DNA of 48,038 nucleotides from Bacteroidales bacterium (GTDB taxonomy: Bacteria; Bacteroidota; Bacteroidia; Bacteroidales; UBA4181), in contig JAISCQ010000274.1 of NCBI GenBank assembly GCA_031265445.1, forward strand, positions 1 to 48,038. The letters are read 5' to 3'. A program made the translations under genes and the position numbers. Each line of letters starts with the position of its first letter. Position 1 is the first letter of the stretch. A model generated the notes under the pieces. It did not search any database. It saw only the letters and a program-made list of their open reading frames with translations, and was not told where the DNA came from. This document shows positions 34,113-43,587 of this stretch, piece by piece.

Positions 34113-35648
34113 TTATTTCTCTATATCTGTTACCTGTAACCCGTTCTTTTCTGTCATCACCCAGGTACAGTCGGCATTTGAGCGCCAGCGGAGCCAGCGT
34201 CCGAGGGCGCGGTCGTTGCACAAAGTCTTGTCTGCAACAATGATGACGCCTTCGGGAACGTAAAGTACCACATCCAGCGTCTGAAACTTCCATTTATCCT
34301 GTGGCGTTACCGTAAAATAAGGGTCAAGAGTCAGCGCCGAATCGCGCGCATCTACGGTATATGCAATGTTTTCCGCATACTGGTATGCAGCGCGCTTGCT
34401 TTCGCCCTGCGACTCGCGGTTGAGCCTCAGCTTTACCTGCCCGTCTTCGCTTTTATGCACGCGCAGGCTTGGCTTACCATAGAAACAACGGTTGTCTTTG
34501 TCGAAATAAACCTCCATCGGGTTGTTCGAAATCTGCAAGCTCGACGGGGCTACGGCCAGGAAGATCGTATCCGACGGGGCTAACTGCCGCGTTTCCACAA
34601 TCTGATCGTTGCGCCAGGCAAAGTTACGCGCTTGCGAGAGACATACAATGATGCCCGTTACAATTGCAATGACCCACAATACGGACAATGCTACATGCAG
34701 CAGTTTGCGCTTCACCCTGAACCCGACAATCAGCCTGGCTCCCCAGAATATGAGTGCGAATACCGGCAATACCGCCACCAGGATCATACAGATCAGCAAA
34801 AAAGTATACGATGCGGGCGTAATAATATGGCGGAACAGTTCGGTGAACGACAGGAAATCCCAGTCCACCATACTGTTGAAAGCAAGATCCTGTATAAAGA
34901 TCAGGACAATCAGGCCAATGGCGATGCAAATGCCCCAGCATAACATGAATAATCCCAGAAGGACGCCAAGTATGCGTCCGGAAACATCGAATACCTTGCC
35001 GAGAAATTCGCCGGCTTCGTTCAGGAAGTTACGGAACGATTGCGAGAGCGATGGATCGGAAAGATTTTCCTTGATGATTTTCTCAATATTACTGATGGTC
35101 ACCGGTTCGCCGCTCATTTCGAGTTTTTGCGCGGTTGTTTTGGCTTTGGGAATGATGATCCACAGGAGCGCGTAAAATGCGATCGATAAGCCGTAGAAAA
35201 ATGCGACGGCAAGGAATACCAGGCGCAGGGCAAGCGGACTGATCCCCAGCCATGCTGCAATGCCGGAACAAACGCCGCCGATATAGCGCTGATCGGGATC
35301 GCGATAGAGCCGTCGACGTATGGACTTTCCCGGTTGCTGCGCCGGTTGTGGAGGAGTCGCGGTTCCGGCTTCGAAATCCGCATCGGCGCCGACAATATCT
35401 TCCGGCGTACCGAGTGTCTGGATCACCTTCGTTACATCCGCCAGTGTGATTACCTGCCCGGTTCCGCCATTCCGCTCGGCAAACAGTTCGGAGATACGCG
35501 CCTCTATATCGGTAATAATTTCGCGGCCTCCCTGCTCCTGCTCAAAATATTCGCCCAATGCATCGAGATACGAGCCAAGTTTGCCGAATGCATCGTCGTC
35601 GATACTGAAAACAATACCATTGATATTGATGGTTTCTACACGTTTCAT
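34113..35648 (-). CDS. PspC-domain membrane protein (long form)
   Basis: SIRRRLYRDPDQRYIGGVCSGIAAWLGISPLALRLVFLAVAFFYGLSIAFYALLWIIIPKA (PspC), additional TM helices and C-terminal soluble domain. Confidence 0.88.
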   Translation of the reverse strand: MKRVETININGIVFSIDDDAFGKLGSYLDALGEYFEQEQGGREIITDIEARISELFAERNGGTGQVITLADVTKVIQTLGTPEDIVGADADFEAGTATPPQPAQQPGKSIRRRLYRDPDQRYIGGVCSGIAAWLGISPLALRLVFLAVAFFYGLSIAFYALLWIIIPKAKTTAQKLEMSGEPVTISNIEKIIKENLSDPSLSQSFRNFLNEAGEFLGKVFDVSGRILGVLLGLFMLCWGICIAIGLIVLIFIQDLAFNSMVDWDFLSFTELFRHIITPASYTFLLICMILVAVLPVFALIFWGARLIVGFRVKRKLLHVALSVLWVIAIVTGIIVCLSQARNFAWRNDQIVETRQLAPSDTIFLAVAPSSLQISNNPMEVYFDKDNRCFYGKPSLRVHKSEDGQVKLRLNRESQGESKRAAYQYAENIAYTVDARDSALTLDPYFTVTPQDKWKFQTLDVVLYVPEGVIIVADKTLCNDRALGRWLRWRSNADCTWVMTEKNGLQVTDIEK

Positions 35649-35663
35649 TTTTGTTTGATTTGA

Positions 35664-36002
35664 TTAGATTGTTTGACGATTGTTACGAAGTTTATTCACC
35701 GAGTCGACCAGTTCCTGCCACGACGCGTCGAGGTCGGCCAGGAAACGCCTGCCTTCCCCGGTGATGGTGTAATACTTGCGCGGCGGACCCTGCGTCGACT
35801 CTTCCCAGCGGTAGGCCAGCAACCCGGCATTTTTCTGTCGGGTGAGCAGCGGGTATAATGTCCCTTCTACGACGATCATCTGCGCCTCTTTCAGCCGGTT
35901 GATAATGTCGGAAGCGTATGCATCGCCGTCAGACAATACGCAGAGGATACAATATTCCAGTATTCCTTTGCGCATCTGGGCTTTTACATTTTCGGCGCTC
36001 AT
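35664..36002 (-). CDS. PadR family transcriptional regulator
   Basis: MRKGILEYCILCVLSDGDAYASDIINRLKEAQMIVVEGTLYPLLTRQKNAGLLAYRWEESTQGPPRKYYTITGEGRRFL. Confidence 0.95.
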   Translation of the reverse strand: MSAENVKAQMRKGILEYCILCVLSDGDAYASDIINRLKEAQMIVVEGTLYPLLTRQKNAGLLAYRWEESTQGPPRKYYTITGEGRRFLADLDASWQELVDSVNKLRNNRQTI

Positions 36003-36004
36003 GG

Positions 36005-36448
36005 TCAGGCGATTAACATTTTAGGAGCCCTGGGAATAATGATCCAAAGGATGATGTACAGCCAGAAACCCAGAGTGCCCAGGAAGCCGGCAATCACAAA
36101 AAGCACCCGTACGATCACAGGATCAATTTCAAAATAATCGCCCAAACCGGTACATACGCCGGCAATCATCTTGTCCTTCGGCTGGCGGTACAACCTTTTC
36201 CCGCCGATTGCCGATGTGGCTGCCTGATATTCCGATGCCGAAAAACCAAGCTGATACAGCGCATCCACCACGTCAGGATAAGTGACAACCGGTTTGCCGC
36301 CGAGTTTTTGCTCCAGCCGATCGGCTACCTGTGCTTCCAGTTCCTGCTTCTTCCACTGGGCGTTCAATACATTATTTAAATATGCATAAGCATCTTCCTC
36401 TATTTGAAACATCTTAGTACCAAGATGAATCGAAATAACTTTTTTCAT
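36005..36448 (-). CDS. PspC-domain protein (short form)
   Basis: KRLYRQPKDKMIAGVCTGLGDYFEIDPVIVRVLFVIAGFLGTLGFWLYIILWIIIPRA. Confidence 0.9.
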   Translation of the reverse strand: MKKVISIHLGTKMFQIEEDAYAYLNNVLNAQWKKQELEAQVADRLEQKLGGKPVVTYPDVVDALYQLGFSASEYQAATSAIGGKRLYRQPKDKMIAGVCTGLGDYFEIDPVIVRVLFVIAGFLGTLGFWLYIILWIIIPRAPKMLIA

Positions 36449-37618: not shown

Positions 37619-38092
37619 CTATAACGTTTTCACGTGAGACAGGAGCGCTATGGCCGAACCCTCCTTGCCGTCCTTCACCGATATGAAAATGATGTATATG
37701 GCTGTTTTATGACAATCGAAATCAAAATTCTGGTATTCCTTACCTGTTTCCGGGTTATATGAACTCCCCATCAGTTTGGCTTCGTCGTACAGTTGCAGGA
37801 CAGCTTCGCCCGGCGATTCCTCGTCCGTACAGATGGTGAACCTGTACCGGTGTCCTGCGCGGAGCGCTAAGGCCTGCCTGAAGACAGGCGCTCGTTCGCC
37901 ATCCTTTGCGGCTGCCAGTTGAACCGGATAGTCGGATTGGAAAGTGGCGCCTCCCGCCAGTTTCGTACACAGCTCAACCCTTTGCGCTTCCGTTTGAGCC
38001 TTTGCCGACTGGGAAAAGAAAGCGACGGTAAATAAAAATAAGGTCAGGAAAAATATTTTTTTCATCTCGTGGAAGGATTTTTTAAAATTCAT
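37619..38092 (-). CDS. Secreted protein of unknown function (signal peptide, 157 aa)
   Basis: MKKIFFLTLFLFTVAFFSQSAKAQ signal peptide; TAATG overlap with upstream lipoprotein gene. Confidence 0.7.
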   Translation of the reverse strand: MNFKKSFHEMKKIFFLTLFLFTVAFFSQSAKAQTEAQRVELCTKLAGGATFQSDYPVQLAAAKDGERAPVFRQALALRAGHRYRFTICTDEESPGEAVLQLYDEAKLMGSSYNPETGKEYQNFDFDCHKTAIYIIFISVKDGKEGSAIALLSHVKTL

Positions 38093-39006
38093 TATTTGAT
38101 CAATTTGCCCCGGACGATTTCGGCCTGCGTCATAATTGCCTGCATCTGTTCCTCGGTATAATGGACGGTGCTGGTTTCGGTCTGCACGATGGTCAACATT
38201 CCGTCCACTTCGATGGCTTTCGGCTCGCCGATCTCGATGGTGATCCTGATCCCGTCGTAGATCTCCTTAATAGCGGTCAGGTCGACGATCAGGTCGGCTA
38301 TATACTGCTCCTTTTTATAATTATTCAGGATGATCAGCAACTGGTCGAGGATCACTTTCTGCTCGCCGATACTCTCGGCCAAACGCTTCTCGTCGGGGCG
38401 TTCCTTCAAAAACTGCGCCGACAGGTACAGTCCTTCCACCCAAACGCCGGCTATCATCAAGGTACTGAGGTTGCCGCGGCCGTTCTTTTGCAGGTACTTG
38501 TCCATCTTGTTGAAACTCCGCTGCGAAATATACACCAGCGAGTCGATGTTCTGGTTGTTGGTGGCCAGACGCTTCAAGGTAGAGAAATCGAAAAACTGTC
38601 CCACGTTGATCCCGTCGGCCAGGTTCTTCATTGCCGTAATATAGTCCAGCACCAGCGACGTCTTGCCGTACATGTTCAAATAACCGAGGTCGGTACCGAA
38701 AATACCCAGATTGAATGCCTTTGCAGAACTGGTATTGTAATTCGAAACATTTTTGGTTGTTGCCAGATACTTTTGCGAAAACGGCACTTTCAGGGTTTTC
38801 ACCAGCGAAGCCATTTCAATAGGCGACGAGATATTACCCACCATTTCCTCCATCACGCTCGGTTTCACTTTCAGCTCCCCTTCACTGCGAATTGAGTCGG
38901 GGATAGCAAAATCGTCCGTATTTGTCCGGCTACAAGTGGTGCAGGAGGTGAGTCCCTGCATCACCAGCGCTACAAAAGCGATGACAAATAAAGATTTATG
39001 AATCAT
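38092..39006 (-). CDS. Lipoprotein of unknown function (304 aa, helical)
   Basis: Lipobox LTSC after signal peptide; no recognised domain. Confidence 0.75.
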   Translation of the reverse strand: MIHKSLFVIAFVALVMQGLTSCTTCSRTNTDDFAIPDSIRSEGELKVKPSVMEEMVGNISSPIEMASLVKTLKVPFSQKYLATTKNVSNYNTSSAKAFNLGIFGTDLGYLNMYGKTSLVLDYITAMKNLADGINVGQFFDFSTLKRLATNNQNIDSLVYISQRSFNKMDKYLQKNGRGNLSTLMIAGVWVEGLYLSAQFLKERPDEKRLAESIGEQKVILDQLLIILNNYKKEQYIADLIVDLTAIKEIYDGIRITIEIGEPKAIEVDGMLTIVQTETSTVHYTEEQMQAIMTQAEIVRGKLIK

Positions 39007-39028
39007 ACGGTTACTTATTTTAAAGATA

Positions 39029-39036
39029 CAAAGTTA
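39029..39036 (-). promoter_or_regulatory. -7 promoter element (TAACTTTG) in front of the lipoprotein gene
   Basis: caaagtta on + strand, between ABCG stop (39041) and lipoprotein start (39006). Confidence 0.5.
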
Positions 39037-39040
39037 AGAA

Positions 39041-42000
39041 TTATTTTTTGAAATGTATACGGCCAAAGAAATCCATTAATTTTTTCAGCCAGTCGTAATA
39101 CAATGCAGCATACAGCAAAGCCGAGTAAAGCCAGATCAAGCAGATATTGAACCAGTAGGTATCAAAAAATGTACCTGCAAAATATTTTCGCGGCGCAAAG
39201 AAATGGGTGCGGACATTGACCATACTCGTGGTGGTCGGATCCTTGTAAATCGGGTCGATCTGCTGTACCAACTCCTGATCGAACTCCAAAATTTTATTTT
39301 TTTCGAACGATTTCTTCACAATCTCGCCCAAATGCTCGTTTTGGTACGAATTTTTGAGATCGGTATAGAGCTGGGCGTTCCGGTCGAGCATGAAACCGAT
39401 CAGTTTTTCCTTTTCGGTGTTGGCATGGGCAAACTCAGTCATATATCGCTCGTTCATCGCTCCGATGAATGTTTCCAGCTGAACGGCCGCCTCAACGTCA
39501 AATTTATCGGGAGTAAGCAGCAAAAGGTCGAAAGGCGCGGCAGGGTTAAGGGCCATCTCCTTCTTTACCTCATTGTACAACACTTTCAGTTCGCCGGCAT
39601 TTTCCGTTACCTTCCCTTTTGCCGACAGTTCGTCGAAACACAGGTTGAAGCGTTTTTCCATTTCGGGAATCAGATATACCTGCCGGAAATCGGCTGTACT
39701 TTCGCGTTTTTCGATGTCGTAGAAGTACCGCTCAAAACGGTTGTCCTTGTATTGGTGCACCATCAATGCTTCATACGACCAGCGTGTCACCATGAACTCG
39801 GCCACCAGCGGCACCTTATTGATGCTGCCTACATTGCGGTTCAGTTTGTCGAAGCTGAACATCGCGCCGCTGAGCACCATCATCGGGATCATCAACAGCG
39901 GGATGATGATGTAGATGGTAACCGCCGAATTGAACGAAGCCGAAATGTTCAGCCCAAGGATGTTGGCAAACACCGCCGTAGAGAACAGCGCCAGCCAGTA
40001 GGCGAAATACATGCCTTTCACTTCGAGGATCGTGTTGGCGATCGACACAAACAGCAACGATTGAACAGCAGAAATGGCGATCAGGATCAATACTTTGGAA
40101 ACCAGGTAACTCGACTTGCTCAGGTTGAGAAATGCCTCTCGCTTGAGTATCTTGCGGTCGCGGAATATTTCTTCGGCGCTCACGATCAACCCCAGGAACA
40201 GGGCTACGATGAGGCTCATGAAGATAAAGATGGGAATATTTTCGTTTTCGCGGAAGATGTACACTTTCGACATCGGGTCGGCGATATAGCGGATCACATA
40301 CGCCAGGATGAAAGCCAGCGCCGGCGCCTCGAGCATCGTAAGCATCAGGTATTGTTTGTTGCTGATTTTCGAGAAGAAATCGCGGACCGTATAGATGCGT
40401 AGCTGCTTGAACCAGTTGGGTATGTTCAGTGCCTTTGGCGGCTTGTCCTGTATGACGTCTTGCGTTTCGGTCATATAATTCTTCCGGTAGAGTTCCTCCC
40501 ACTGCGGCGGCGAAATTTTCCGCTTGTCGGTGTATCGGCCGAATTCGTCGACCACCCGCGCCTCGATGATATTGAAGATCAGCTCCGGGTTCACATTGCC
40601 GCACACGGGACACTCGCCTACATCGCTGTTGATCTGCGCGTCGATGCGCTTGAAATACATCACCGCTTCCACCGGGTTTCCGTAGTAAATCAGGTAACCG
40701 CCGGTGTCGAGGATGATCATCCTGTCGAACATCTTGTAAATATCCGACGACGGCTGGTGAATCACCACGAAGATCAGTTTTCCTTTCAGGACAAGCTCAC
40801 GCAGGAGGTCCATCACGTTTTCCGAATCGCTCGACGACAAACCCGATGTAGGCTCATCCACAAACAGTATCGACGGTTCGCGGAGCAGCTCCAGCGCAAT
40901 GTTCAGCCTTTTGCGCTGTCCTCCGCTGATGGTTTTATTCAGCGGCGACCCCACCTTCAAGTCCTTGCGGTCGTGCAGGCCGAGGCTATGCAAGGTCTTA
41001 TCCACCAGCGCCACCAATTCTTTCTCGCTTTTGTCGCGGAAGCACAGCTTGGCATTATAATAAAGGTTCTCGAAAACGGTCAGTTCCTCAATCAGCAGGT
41101 CGTCCTGCGGGATATAGCCGATCACGCCTTCGAGTTTTTCCCTTTCGGCGTGCAGATCAACGCCATTGATCAGTACTTCGCCTTTCGATGGTTTTTCGAG
41201 TCCGCACAACACATTTAATAATGTAGTCTTGCCGGCACCGCTGGCGCCCATAATCCCGATGAGTTTGCCGTGTCCCTCGGTAAAGCTGATGTTGCGCAAC
41301 CCGACGGCGCCATTGGGAAATTTGAAATCGAGGCGCTTCACCTCGAACGATATTTTATTGGCGGTCAGGTCGGCCAGAAAGTGCGACACCACATCGCTGT
41401 AGTAAACCGGCTTGCCCTTGGGCATTTTTACCGTGCTACCGCTGGCAAACAGGTATATGCGGCGTTTGTTCAGTCCTAACCCGTTCAGGAAGAGCGATTC
41501 GTTGCCGGTATATTTCAGGAAATAAAGATCGACGCTCGGTACGCGAAGCAGCGCTATGATTCCCTCCAGTTCGTCGGTTTTGATGAATTTGGCGCCGGAC
41601 AATTGCGGCTGGTCGCTGCTGATGAGCAGAATATCCGGAAGATCAAGCTCTTCGGGCTGATTTTTCACTACAAAAGTCTCAATGCTTTGAAACTCCTCCT
41701 TCGACACCTTGAATACTTCCGCCACCGTATTGATAATGGCCATACGCTGGTCGGAAAACTTGCGGTCGGCGTTCACCAGTTCGAACAGACGCAGCAGCGA
41801 CACCACTTTCTGCTCCTGGGTCAGCGTCTTGTTGATCTTTTTGCAGATGCCCAGCACGCGAACCGAATCCTTCACGGAGGTCAGCTTCTTTTTTCCGGTA
41901 TCTTCCTTATCGGTTTCTTCCGAAGATTGTTCGTCAAATAATTTCAAGTATTCGCTGGCAGTTTCCTGGCTGAGCTGCTGGTTGAGAAAACTCTCAACAT

Positions 42001-42088
42001 AAGCGCGTTCGCCACTCAAAACGCCTTCGTCTTGTTTTACAATCAATGCAAACAATTGCATTAACGCCCTCAAAATTTCCTCACTCAT
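39041..42088 (-). CDS. ABCG-type (ABC-2) transporter half/full protein with N-terminal TerB-like and FHA-like regions
   Basis: Walker A GIMGASGAGKTTLL, signature ISGGQRKRLNIALELL, Walker B ILFVDEPTSGLSS, H-loop VIHQPSSDIYKMFD; ABC2 membrane region; N-terminal helical TerB-like tandem. Confidence 0.9.
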   Translation of the reverse strand: MSEEILRALMQLFALIVKQDEGVLSGERAYVESFLNQQLSQETASEYLKLFDEQSSEETDKEDTGKKKLTSVKDSVRVLGICKKINKTLTQEQKVVSLLRLFELVNADRKFSDQRMAIINTVAEVFKVSKEEFQSIETFVVKNQPEELDLPDILLISSDQPQLSGAKFIKTDELEGIIALLRVPSVDLYFLKYTGNESLFLNGLGLNKRRIYLFASGSTVKMPKGKPVYYSDVVSHFLADLTANKISFEVKRLDFKFPNGAVGLRNISFTEGHGKLIGIMGASGAGKTTLLNVLCGLEKPSKGEVLINGVDLHAEREKLEGVIGYIPQDDLLIEELTVFENLYYNAKLCFRDKSEKELVALVDKTLHSLGLHDRKDLKVGSPLNKTISGGQRKRLNIALELLREPSILFVDEPTSGLSSSDSENVMDLLRELVLKGKLIFVVIHQPSSDIYKMFDRMIILDTGGYLIYYGNPVEAVMYFKRIDAQINSDVGECPVCGNVNPELIFNIIEARVVDEFGRYTDKRKISPPQWEELYRKNYMTETQDVIQDKPPKALNIPNWFKQLRIYTVRDFFSKISNKQYLMLTMLEAPALAFILAYVIRYIADPMSKVYIFRENENIPIFIFMSLIVALFLGLIVSAEEIFRDRKILKREAFLNLSKSSYLVSKVLILIAISAVQSLLFVSIANTILEVKGMYFAYWLALFSTAVFANILGLNISASFNSAVTIYIIIPLLMIPMMVLSGAMFSFDKLNRNVGSINKVPLVAEFMVTRWSYEALMVHQYKDNRFERYFYDIEKRESTADFRQVYLIPEMEKRFNLCFDELSAKGKVTENAGELKVLYNEVKKEMALNPAAPFDLLLLTPDKFDVEAAVQLETFIGAMNERYMTEFAHANTEKEKLIGFMLDRNAQLYTDLKNSYQNEHLGEIVKKSFEKNKILEFDQELVQQIDPIYKDPTTTSMVNVRTHFFAPRKYFAGTFFDTYWFNICLIWLYSALLYAALYYDWLKKLMDFFGRIHFKK

Positions 42089-42522
42089 ATTACTACCCTA
42101 CCTTTTAGATAAGCTTTTTCTTTACTTATTCGTGTAAAAATACAAAGCATCGATAACTAAACAAATAATATCTACTTTTCGATCAGAACCTTATTCCTGT
42201 TTTACGGGAAAAAACCAAAAATGTTTCCCCAATGTTAACAAATATCATCTGCAAATTCGCATATTGTTTTTAACAATATATCAATCAATAATTTACAGCG
42301 ACAACGGATCAAAGTCGAAAAAAGCGGCCTTATTGCCTACCAACAAACATTTTCATACATTATTTGTTTATTTATAGACAGTTGATCATTAATTGATGTT
42401 TCCATGCAAAAAAAATGCAAATGACTGTAACCTCAACGCCGAATTTTCGTATAATGATCGTAATCCAAAAACGAAAATCAGTCAGGGACTCAAAAATTGT
42501 TGTATTCATTTGAAAAATAACA

Positions 42523-42530
42523 TATATTTG
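42523..42530 (+). promoter_or_regulatory. -7 promoter element TATATTTG upstream of siaB-like gene
   Basis: tatatttg, 44-51 bp before the ATG at 42574. Confidence 0.5.
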
Positions 42531-42573
42531 TGCCAATATTTAAAATCTCATCTTTATATTATAGAAGAGCTAT

Positions 42574-43125
42574 ATGGGCTTTGATGTCAATCAGTTGTAT
42601 GCCGAAATTTGTGGGGATGATGTATTTTTTGCCTATGCAGGGAACATTGTATCGGAACAGATCAACCTGATCTTGGAAGAGATCGAAAAGAAGTCCGTAG
42701 AGGTGTCGACCAACATCAAGGTGAGGAAGAAGATCTATAACATCATGGTAGAAAGTCTTCAGAATCTTTTTCACCATTTGGACGATGTGCCCGAAGGATT
42801 ATCCGAAACCCTTGGTAAGAGATACGGAATGATTGTCATCAAAAGAGAAGGTGGTGATTTCAGGTTGACGGTCGGAAATTTTGTTTCGGCGGATAAAGTA
42901 AAGTTTCTCACCGAAAAAATAGCGAAAATCAATTCATTATCAAATGACGAGCTTAAAGAGATGTATAAATTCATCCTTAATTATCAAAAGTTATCCTCGA
43001 AAGGAGGCGGTGGTTTGGGATTGATCGATATTGCACGAAAATCCGACAAAAAACTTGAGTACAGGTTTTATCCCTACAGCGATCGTTATTATTTTTACAG
43101 GTTAGATATTTTTGTTTCAATATAG
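42574..43125 (+). CDS. siaB: SiaB-family (GHKL-like) protein kinase
   Basis: IYNIMVESLQNLFHHLDD (N-box-like) and SSKGGGGLGLIDIARKS (G-box-like), directly followed by a DUF1987/SiaC-like gene. Confidence 0.75.
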   Translation: MGFDVNQLYAEICGDDVFFAYAGNIVSEQINLILEEIEKKSVEVSTNIKVRKKIYNIMVESLQNLFHHLDDVPEGLSETLGKRYGMIVIKREGGDFRLTVGNFVSADKVKFLTEKIAKINSLSNDELKEMYKFILNYQKLSSKGGGGLGLIDIARKSDKKLEYRFYPYSDRYYFYRLDIFVSI

Positions 43126-43151
43126 AAATTGCGTAAATTATTAAAATTATT

Positions 43152-43532
43152 ATGGATACATTGTCAATAGAAGGAACTCCCAAAACGCCTACTGTTCGTT
43201 TTAACGGATCAAAAGGAATCATTGAAATCAAGGGGCGTTCGATACCCGAGAATTCAATTGAATTTTATAAACCACTGGTCGAGTGGCTTGAAGCTTATGC
43301 GAAAGAATCAAAGCCACAGACTCAGGTCAATATTCAATTGGAATATTTTAATACAAGTTCGTCGAAATGTATCCTGGATGTTTTCAAAAAATTGGAGGCA
43401 ATACAGAAGGCTAACCAGGGTGTTACCATCAATTGGTTCTACGACGAAGACGATGAAGATATGCTGGAAGCAGGGCAAGATTACGAGTCCATCATCCGCA
43501 TACCCTTCAAGATGATCGAAGTTGTGGGTTAA
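43152..43532 (+). CDS. siaC: SiaC family (DUF1987) regulatory phosphoprotein
   Basis: GIIEIKGRSIPENSIEFYKPLVEWLEAYAK...LEYFNTSSSKCILDVFKKLE matches the DUF1987/SiaC pattern; 26-bp gap from siaB. Confidence 0.82.
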   Translation: MDTLSIEGTPKTPTVRFNGSKGIIEIKGRSIPENSIEFYKPLVEWLEAYAKESKPQTQVNIQLEYFNTSSSKCILDVFKKLEAIQKANQGVTINWFYDEDDEDMLEAGQDYESIIRIPFKMIEVVG

Positions 43533-43551: not shown

Positions 43552-43587
43552 TCAAGCCGGTTTGAGACATAATTCAAACCGGCTTGA
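43552..43587 (+). terminator. Intrinsic terminator after siaBC
   Basis: 14-bp perfect stem TCAAGCCGGTTTGA / TCAAACCGGCTTGA, 8-nt loop, then T-rich tgtgctttcttttt. Confidence 0.85.

Follow-up and report, generated by a model that had tools for sequence, protein, structure and literature searches.

The SiaABC partner-switching system of the Bacteroidota probably has an ABCG exporter as its output in place of a diguanylate cyclase. In the window, by which we mean the whole 48,038-nucleotide stretch of DNA that was analysed, a siaB-siaC pair diverges from the genes of a TerB-ABCG transporter, a lipoprotein (LP) and a secreted protein (SEC). A sequence-only reading had suggested that SiaC has an output here other than a cyclase, with the TerB-ABCG transporter as the candidate. 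Comparison with related genomes supports that suggestion strongly, through conserved operons, two paralogous pairings, co-occurrence in genomes nearly free of GGDEF proteins and a correlation with the transporter N-terminus, but it also shows that the pair in the window is itself re-paired.

All five genes are real and arranged as that reading described them, by Pfam and NCBIfam searches and by inspection of the sequence (Table 1). Moreover, siaB and siaC form a tight pair before a terminator-like stem as it had claimed, with siaC starting 26 bp past the end of siaB. The gap between siaB and the divergent ABCG gene is 485 bp. SiaB could be aligned by profile to the solved Pseudomonas aeruginosa SiaB (6kko), with the N-box (E60/N64) and the G-box (KGGGGLGL) kept, whilst SiaC gave a profile match over 122 residues to the solved P. 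aeruginosa SiaC (6kkp/6k4f), in which its phosphosite motif YFNTSSSK, containing T68, aligns to YLNTSSIK. Both proteins score below the cut-offs of the narrower equivalogs, kinase_SiaB and phos_prot_SiaC. The TATATTTG part of the candidate siaBC promoter lies at the same place in two congeneric genomes, G494 and G498. The match is to a Bacteroidota-type promoter motif, and such a pattern is no proof of function. Elsewhere in the window (34113-36448), two PspC-like membrane proteins surround a PadR-like regulator, by eye an apparently separate envelope-stress operon.

Table 1. Features of the siaBC/TerB-ABCG region, in coordinates of the window.
Feature	Position	Strand	Basis or remark
siaB, SiaB-family protein kinase, 183 aa	42574..43125	+	NF038262 SiaB_fam_kinase 6e-40, above cut-off; type-B-linked clade
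siaC, SiaC/DUF1987 phosphoprotein, 126 aa	43152..43532	+	PF09345 1.1e-45, above cut-off
Terminator-like hairpin 3′ of siaC	43552..43587	+	15-pair stem, 7 GC, T tail interrupted
Candidate Bacteroidota-type promoter of siaBC, TTG-N20-TATATTTG	42500..42530	+	Pattern match only
TerB-ABCG half-transporter, type A, 1015 aa	39041..42088	-	Pfam TerB, ABC_tran, ABC2_membrane
TerB domain of transporter, residues 3-148	41645..42082	-	PF05099 8e-11 at residues 8-136, above cut-off; helices in model
Small beta domain of transporter, residues 151-245	41354..41638	-	Strands 153-221 in AF2 model
Helical insert between TM5 and TM6, residues 766-976	39161..39793	-	AF2 model; predicted periplasmic
Conserved lipoprotein (LP), 304 aa	38092..39006	-	LTSC lipobox read from sequence
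Conserved small secreted protein (SEC), 157 aa	37619..38092	-	Found after LP in type-A loci and in many of type B

Pfam and fold matches give the transporter the layout of an ABCG half-transporter, in which an N-terminal ATPase is followed by a six-helix ABC2 membrane domain with the ABCG fold; its AF2 model (mean pLDDT 79) matches ABCG5/8, ABCG1 and ABCG2 at E about 1e-23. The insert before the last membrane helix is about 200 residues long and mainly helical in the model, and would lie on the periplasmic side by analogy with ABCG topology. The TerB-like character ascribed to the N-terminus is borne out by the PF05099 match, a family found in 18 of 20 transporter relatives by Pfam scan. The FHA-like character has no support from sequence, as there was no FHA match to Pfam in the 20 relatives or in a PDB profile search, although the model still shows a separate small beta domain (residues 153-221). 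Neither LP nor SEC has a Pfam family. LP occurs beside both types of transporter described below; its AF2 model is confident (pLDDT 87.5), a Foldseek search with this model against the PDB found nothing significant (best E 0.14, poor TM-scores), and going by the model it possibly has a new fold. Sequence-family matches of LP were scattered, weak and mostly confined to single members, and were judged to be chance.

The proximity of siaBC to a TerB-ABCG gene recurs across relatives. One form is a type-A operon of the order CheR-CheB-GAF-SiaA(PP2C)-SiaB-SiaC-TerB/ABCG-lipoprotein-secreted protein, which spans Bacteroidales and Cytophagales and whose carriers include Flexithrix dorotheae DSM 6795, Marinilabiliaceae JC017, Catalimonadaceae JC749 and Cesiribacteraceae YIM B00369. 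Type-A transporters, that of the window among them, are about 55-71% identical within the order. Among 19 type-A loci uncut by contig ends and selected on transporter similarity alone, 18 have an adjoining SiaC, which is upstream in 17 and part of a divergent siaBC in one (L056); the remaining locus has none. In a larger set, 45 of 51 full-length type-A loci (one locus counted twice) had SiaC on the strand of the transporter, no more than 700 bp upstream of it, with a median gap of 49 bp (range 4-295); three of the loci without it are cut by contig ends. Some members of this larger set were chosen with SiaC matches in view, and therefore the set based on transporter similarity is the unbiased one.

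A second form involves a paralogous clade, the type-B transporters, which are roughly 45% identical to type A. In 17 of 24 full-length loci these stand, independently of the type-A pairing, convergent to a SiaC of another clade. Transporter and SiaC are here 17-647 bp apart, and four of the other seven loci are cut by contig ends. Type-B loci keep siaBC beside the transporter and have no sensory genes. Many further TerB-ABCG loci, mostly in other orders, contain lipoprotein and/or secreted-protein genes with no SiaC nearby. SiaC is therefore not obligatory; the transporter set is the core, to which SiaC would be added as a lineage-specific controller. Most SiaC paralogues do not adjoin a TerB-ABCG transporter.

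Three further kinds of SiaC locus were seen. At L185:5324-10129 (G097, C29) a distant, third TerB-ABCG transporter (39% identical) has a lipoprotein of the same family upstream and a same-strand SiaC downstream, possibly a third SiaC-transporter pairing. At L174:3267-4963 (G064) and L177:4187-5844 (G097), in two families, SiaC lies directly 3′ of a MacB/FtsX-type ABC permease and so adjoins a second kind of ABC transporter. Lastly, L154:4781-6850 (G042, C51) encodes a 689-aa fusion of a SpoIIE/PP2C phosphatase domain with a C-terminal SiaC domain, which fits the action of a PP2C on SiaC.

The association also holds at the level of whole genomes. In 198 genomes of the order, TerB-ABCG was found in 84 and SiaC in 87; both were present in 79, the transporter alone in 5, SiaC alone in 8 and neither in 106 (Fisher p 3e-39, shared ancestry not corrected for). 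GGDEF proteins are present in 6 of the 198 and absent from 192, and only one of the 87 SiaC-bearing genomes has one. A wider sample of 297 genomes contained full-length TerB-ABCG in five, all of the window's class, and these same five were the only SiaC-bearing genomes of that class in the sample; SiaC without TerB-ABCG was found in other classes of the phylum. Several genomes of the survey (e.g. G042, G070, G167, G192) carry at least 20 SiaC paralogues each. Nearly all of these SiaC-rich genomes are without GGDEF, and they represent a large unexplored expansion of SiaC.

We then compared evolutionary distances among the proteins of 42 type-A operons (mirror-tree), after the share attributable to the ATPase and membrane domains had been subtracted. 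SiaC correlated at 0.35 with the transporter N-terminus versus 0.12 with the periplasmic insert, and SiaB at 0.49 versus 0.17. The reverse was seen for the lipoprotein (0.12 with the N-terminus, 0.43 with the insert) and the secreted protein (0.26 and 0.43). The combined contrast was 1.02 (bootstrap 0.21-1.71; 0/500 permutations), a modest signal with overlapping individual intervals, drawn from loci that are related. With 40 loci the pattern was the same, although there the SiaA PP2C protein correlated with the beta domain and the insert alike. These sequence correlations fit a contact of SiaB/C with the N-terminus in the cytosol and of LP/SEC with the insert in the periplasm.

The window genome (4.6 Mb assembly, 309 contigs, 85% complete) holds two further SiaC genes. 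One, on contig C78, follows CheB-GAF-SiaA(PP2C)-SiaB and precedes a hybrid histidine kinase. The other is a solo gene on contig C142 (L018:8821-9243, G000), placed between mltD and a small nucleoside diphosphate kinase-like gene at the end of a parA-parB-(unknown)-mltD run; this locus is kept in most of the genus (congener loci L227-L233). A second TerB-ABCG transporter on contig C289 is 42% identical to that of the window and has no SiaC beside it. The earlier reading had seen neither a SiaA-like phosphatase nor a GGDEF protein. For the window this stands, and no GGDEF domain was found in the 85% complete genome either, but a SiaA(PP2C)-SiaB-SiaC operon does exist on C78. It had also said that a SiaA/SiaD pair elsewhere in the genome would count against it; half of such a pair is there, since SiaA lies on C78 and no SiaD was found. 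No PP2C SiaA accompanies siaBC within the window; it is present beside the second SiaBC on C78 and in the conserved type-A operon. The system as such does not lack SiaA, which the ancestral operon contains.

In trees built from 129 transporters and 118 SiaC proteins, the transporter of the window falls in clade A (support 0.92) and its SiaC in the type-B-linked clade (support 0.81), whilst the type-A SiaC of the genome is the C78 copy. The siaBC/ABCG arrangement of the window is a lineage-specific re-pairing, in which a type-A transporter has siaBC of the type-B clade as its neighbour, its ancestral SiaABC being located on C78. The divergent arrangement of siaBC with the ABCG, lipoprotein and secreted-protein genes is common to three congeners (the window genome, G494 and G498), with the same dapB and dihydroorotase flanks; the transporters of G494 and G498 are 98% and 71% identical to that of the window. 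As two congeneric genomes have the same junction and flanks, it is not an assembly error. Other congeners carry siaBC of the type-B-linked clade and TerB-ABCG at separate places, with no lipoprotein or secreted-protein genes beside the transporter. Outside the genus we found divergent siaBC-ABCG once, at L056. In one congener (G492, C72) type-A and type-B transporters adjoin divergently (L251:1796-8090), the only such case seen.

The re-pairing leaves room for a reading in which the conserved link is real, but the SiaC of the window serves the type-B transporter on C289 and the transporter of the window is controlled in trans by SiaABC from C78. We consider this a reasonable contender with rather less than an even chance. 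It agrees with the clades of the two SiaC proteins in the trees, and the genome has both transporter types and both SiaC types. Against it, the divergent junction is kept in three species down to an identity of 68-71% (SiaB, transporter), and an independent divergent siaBC-ABCG is found at L056. Moreover, no type-A SiaABC was detected in G498, which is 96% complete, and so its type-A transporter has only siaBC of the window type. It is unlikely, although not negligibly so, that SiaC acts on a sigma factor or on some other product of the sensory operon, with the transporter, LP and SEC merely co-expressed with the switch. CheR, CheB and GAF proteins are indeed encoded in the same operon, many SiaC copies have no TerB-ABCG anywhere near them, and SiaC resembles anti-sigma-factor antagonists (PMC7647112). 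Against this reading, siaBC in type-B loci stays beside the transporter but is convergent with it, hence on a separate transcript, and sensory genes are missing; nor is the divergent arrangement of the window one operon. The tracking of the transporter N-terminus by SiaB and SiaC in the mirror-tree comparison also speaks against it.

Two other explanations fare far worse. That the adjacency is due to chance is very improbable: the precise divergent layout is confined to three congeneric species plus one unrelated locus, but with up to ~22 SiaC genes in 3-6 Mb we estimate that ~1-2% of transporters would lie within 700 bp of one by chance, whereas adjacency is observed at nearly all type-A and most type-B loci. 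The neighbourhood surveys thus reject chance as an account of the general link. An undetected diguanylate cyclase, through which the module would control c-di-GMP as it does in Pseudomonas, is scarcely credible. SiaB and SiaC are true family members, yet GGDEF searches of the 85% complete window genome and of the 198 genomes of the order, in which a single SiaC-bearing genome in 87 was positive, led us to reject this output.

The most probable reading is partner switching with the ABCG exporter as its output. Points against it are the many TerB-ABCG loci that have no SiaC, the SiaC paralogues located away from such a transporter, the mixed clades of the pair in the window and the modest size of the mirror-tree signal. 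SiaA (a GAF/PAS sensor with a PP2C phosphatase) and SiaB (the kinase) would together set the phosphorylation of SiaC at T68. By analogy with Pseudomonas, the CheR/CheB/GAF set would signal to SiaA, which would dephosphorylate SiaC. In one of its forms, probably without the phosphate if SiaD is a guide, SiaC would bind the cytoplasmic TerB/beta N-terminus and turn export on, and SiaB would switch the transporter off. LP and SEC may work with the large periplasmic insert and carry the substrate onward. The data themselves show the gene content and order, the conserved operon, co-occurrence with GGDEF nearly absent, the conserved catalytic and phosphosite residues and the compartment-wise correlated evolution; we infer the contact between SiaC and the transporter, the direction of the switch, the export activity and the direction of transport.

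No report of a link between SiaC, TerB and ABC transporters was found in the open-access literature searched. DUF1987/SiaC is widespread, and the papers searched describe a single mechanism for it, in which a diguanylate cyclase of Pseudomonas is activated. In the present data SiaC is abundant in bacteria almost without such enzymes, and its most conserved neighbours are the sensor/phosphatase/kinase set and an ABCG exporter. The repeated pairing of the switch with such an exporter in Bacteroidota makes it probable that export across the cell envelope is under its control there. More tentatively, we suggest that SiaC may be a general phospho-switch adaptor in Bacteroidota, that it may act directly on the TerB/beta N-terminus to gate the ABCG exporter, so that a CheR/CheB-PP2C sensory array would drive the export of an envelope compound with the help of a new pair of lipoprotein and secreted protein, and that SiaC and transporter clades swapped partners in the genus of the window. 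These findings provide a concrete candidate for a role of SiaC outside c-di-GMP signalling and one for post-translational control of bacterial ABCG exporters, and the natural re-pairing in this genus offers a ready test of specificity.

The transporter resembles human ABCG1/2/5/8 in having the ATPase before the membrane domain in one chain, as well as in the fold match, and differs in its extra TerB/beta N-terminus and in the helical insert before the last membrane helix. In partner switching of the SpoIIAA/RsbV type, a small STAS-like protein shuttles between partners through phosphorylation controlled by a kinase and a PP2C phosphatase. SiaC, which is likewise STAS-like (PMC7647112, PMC8457831), would be under the same kind of kinase/PP2C control; unlike in that system, the linked candidate target here is a membrane transporter, and no sigma factor or cyclase target is in evidence. 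Features in common with the SiaABCD system of P. aeruginosa (PMC8457831, PMC7647112) are the SiaB kinase, a SiaC carrying the T68 motif and, as far as the conserved operon is concerned, the PP2C SiaA, as well as the gene order SiaA-SiaB-SiaC with the output gene next in line. In P. aeruginosa, SiaC that is not phosphorylated activates SiaD by binding to its stalk, and phosphorylation at T68 blocks binding; DUF1987 proteins have been proposed to commonly modulate adjacent proteins (PMC8457831). In contrast, the output slot here holds TerB-ABCG, the lipoprotein and the secreted protein and not the GGDEF enzyme SiaD, CheR/CheB/GAF genes precede SiaA, and the siaA of the window genome is on another contig. 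The nearest analogue of the principle is Rv1747/PknF of Mycobacterium tuberculosis, where a similarly built ABC transporter has N-terminal cytoplasmic domains linked to Ser/Thr phosphorylation and a kinase gene next to its own (PMC3908365, PMC5549992). Rv1747 uses FHA domains and a Hanks-type kinase (PMC3908365, PMC5549992), whereas the system described here has TerB and a beta domain without an FHA match, and a GHKL-like kinase, SiaB, that would act through an adaptor.
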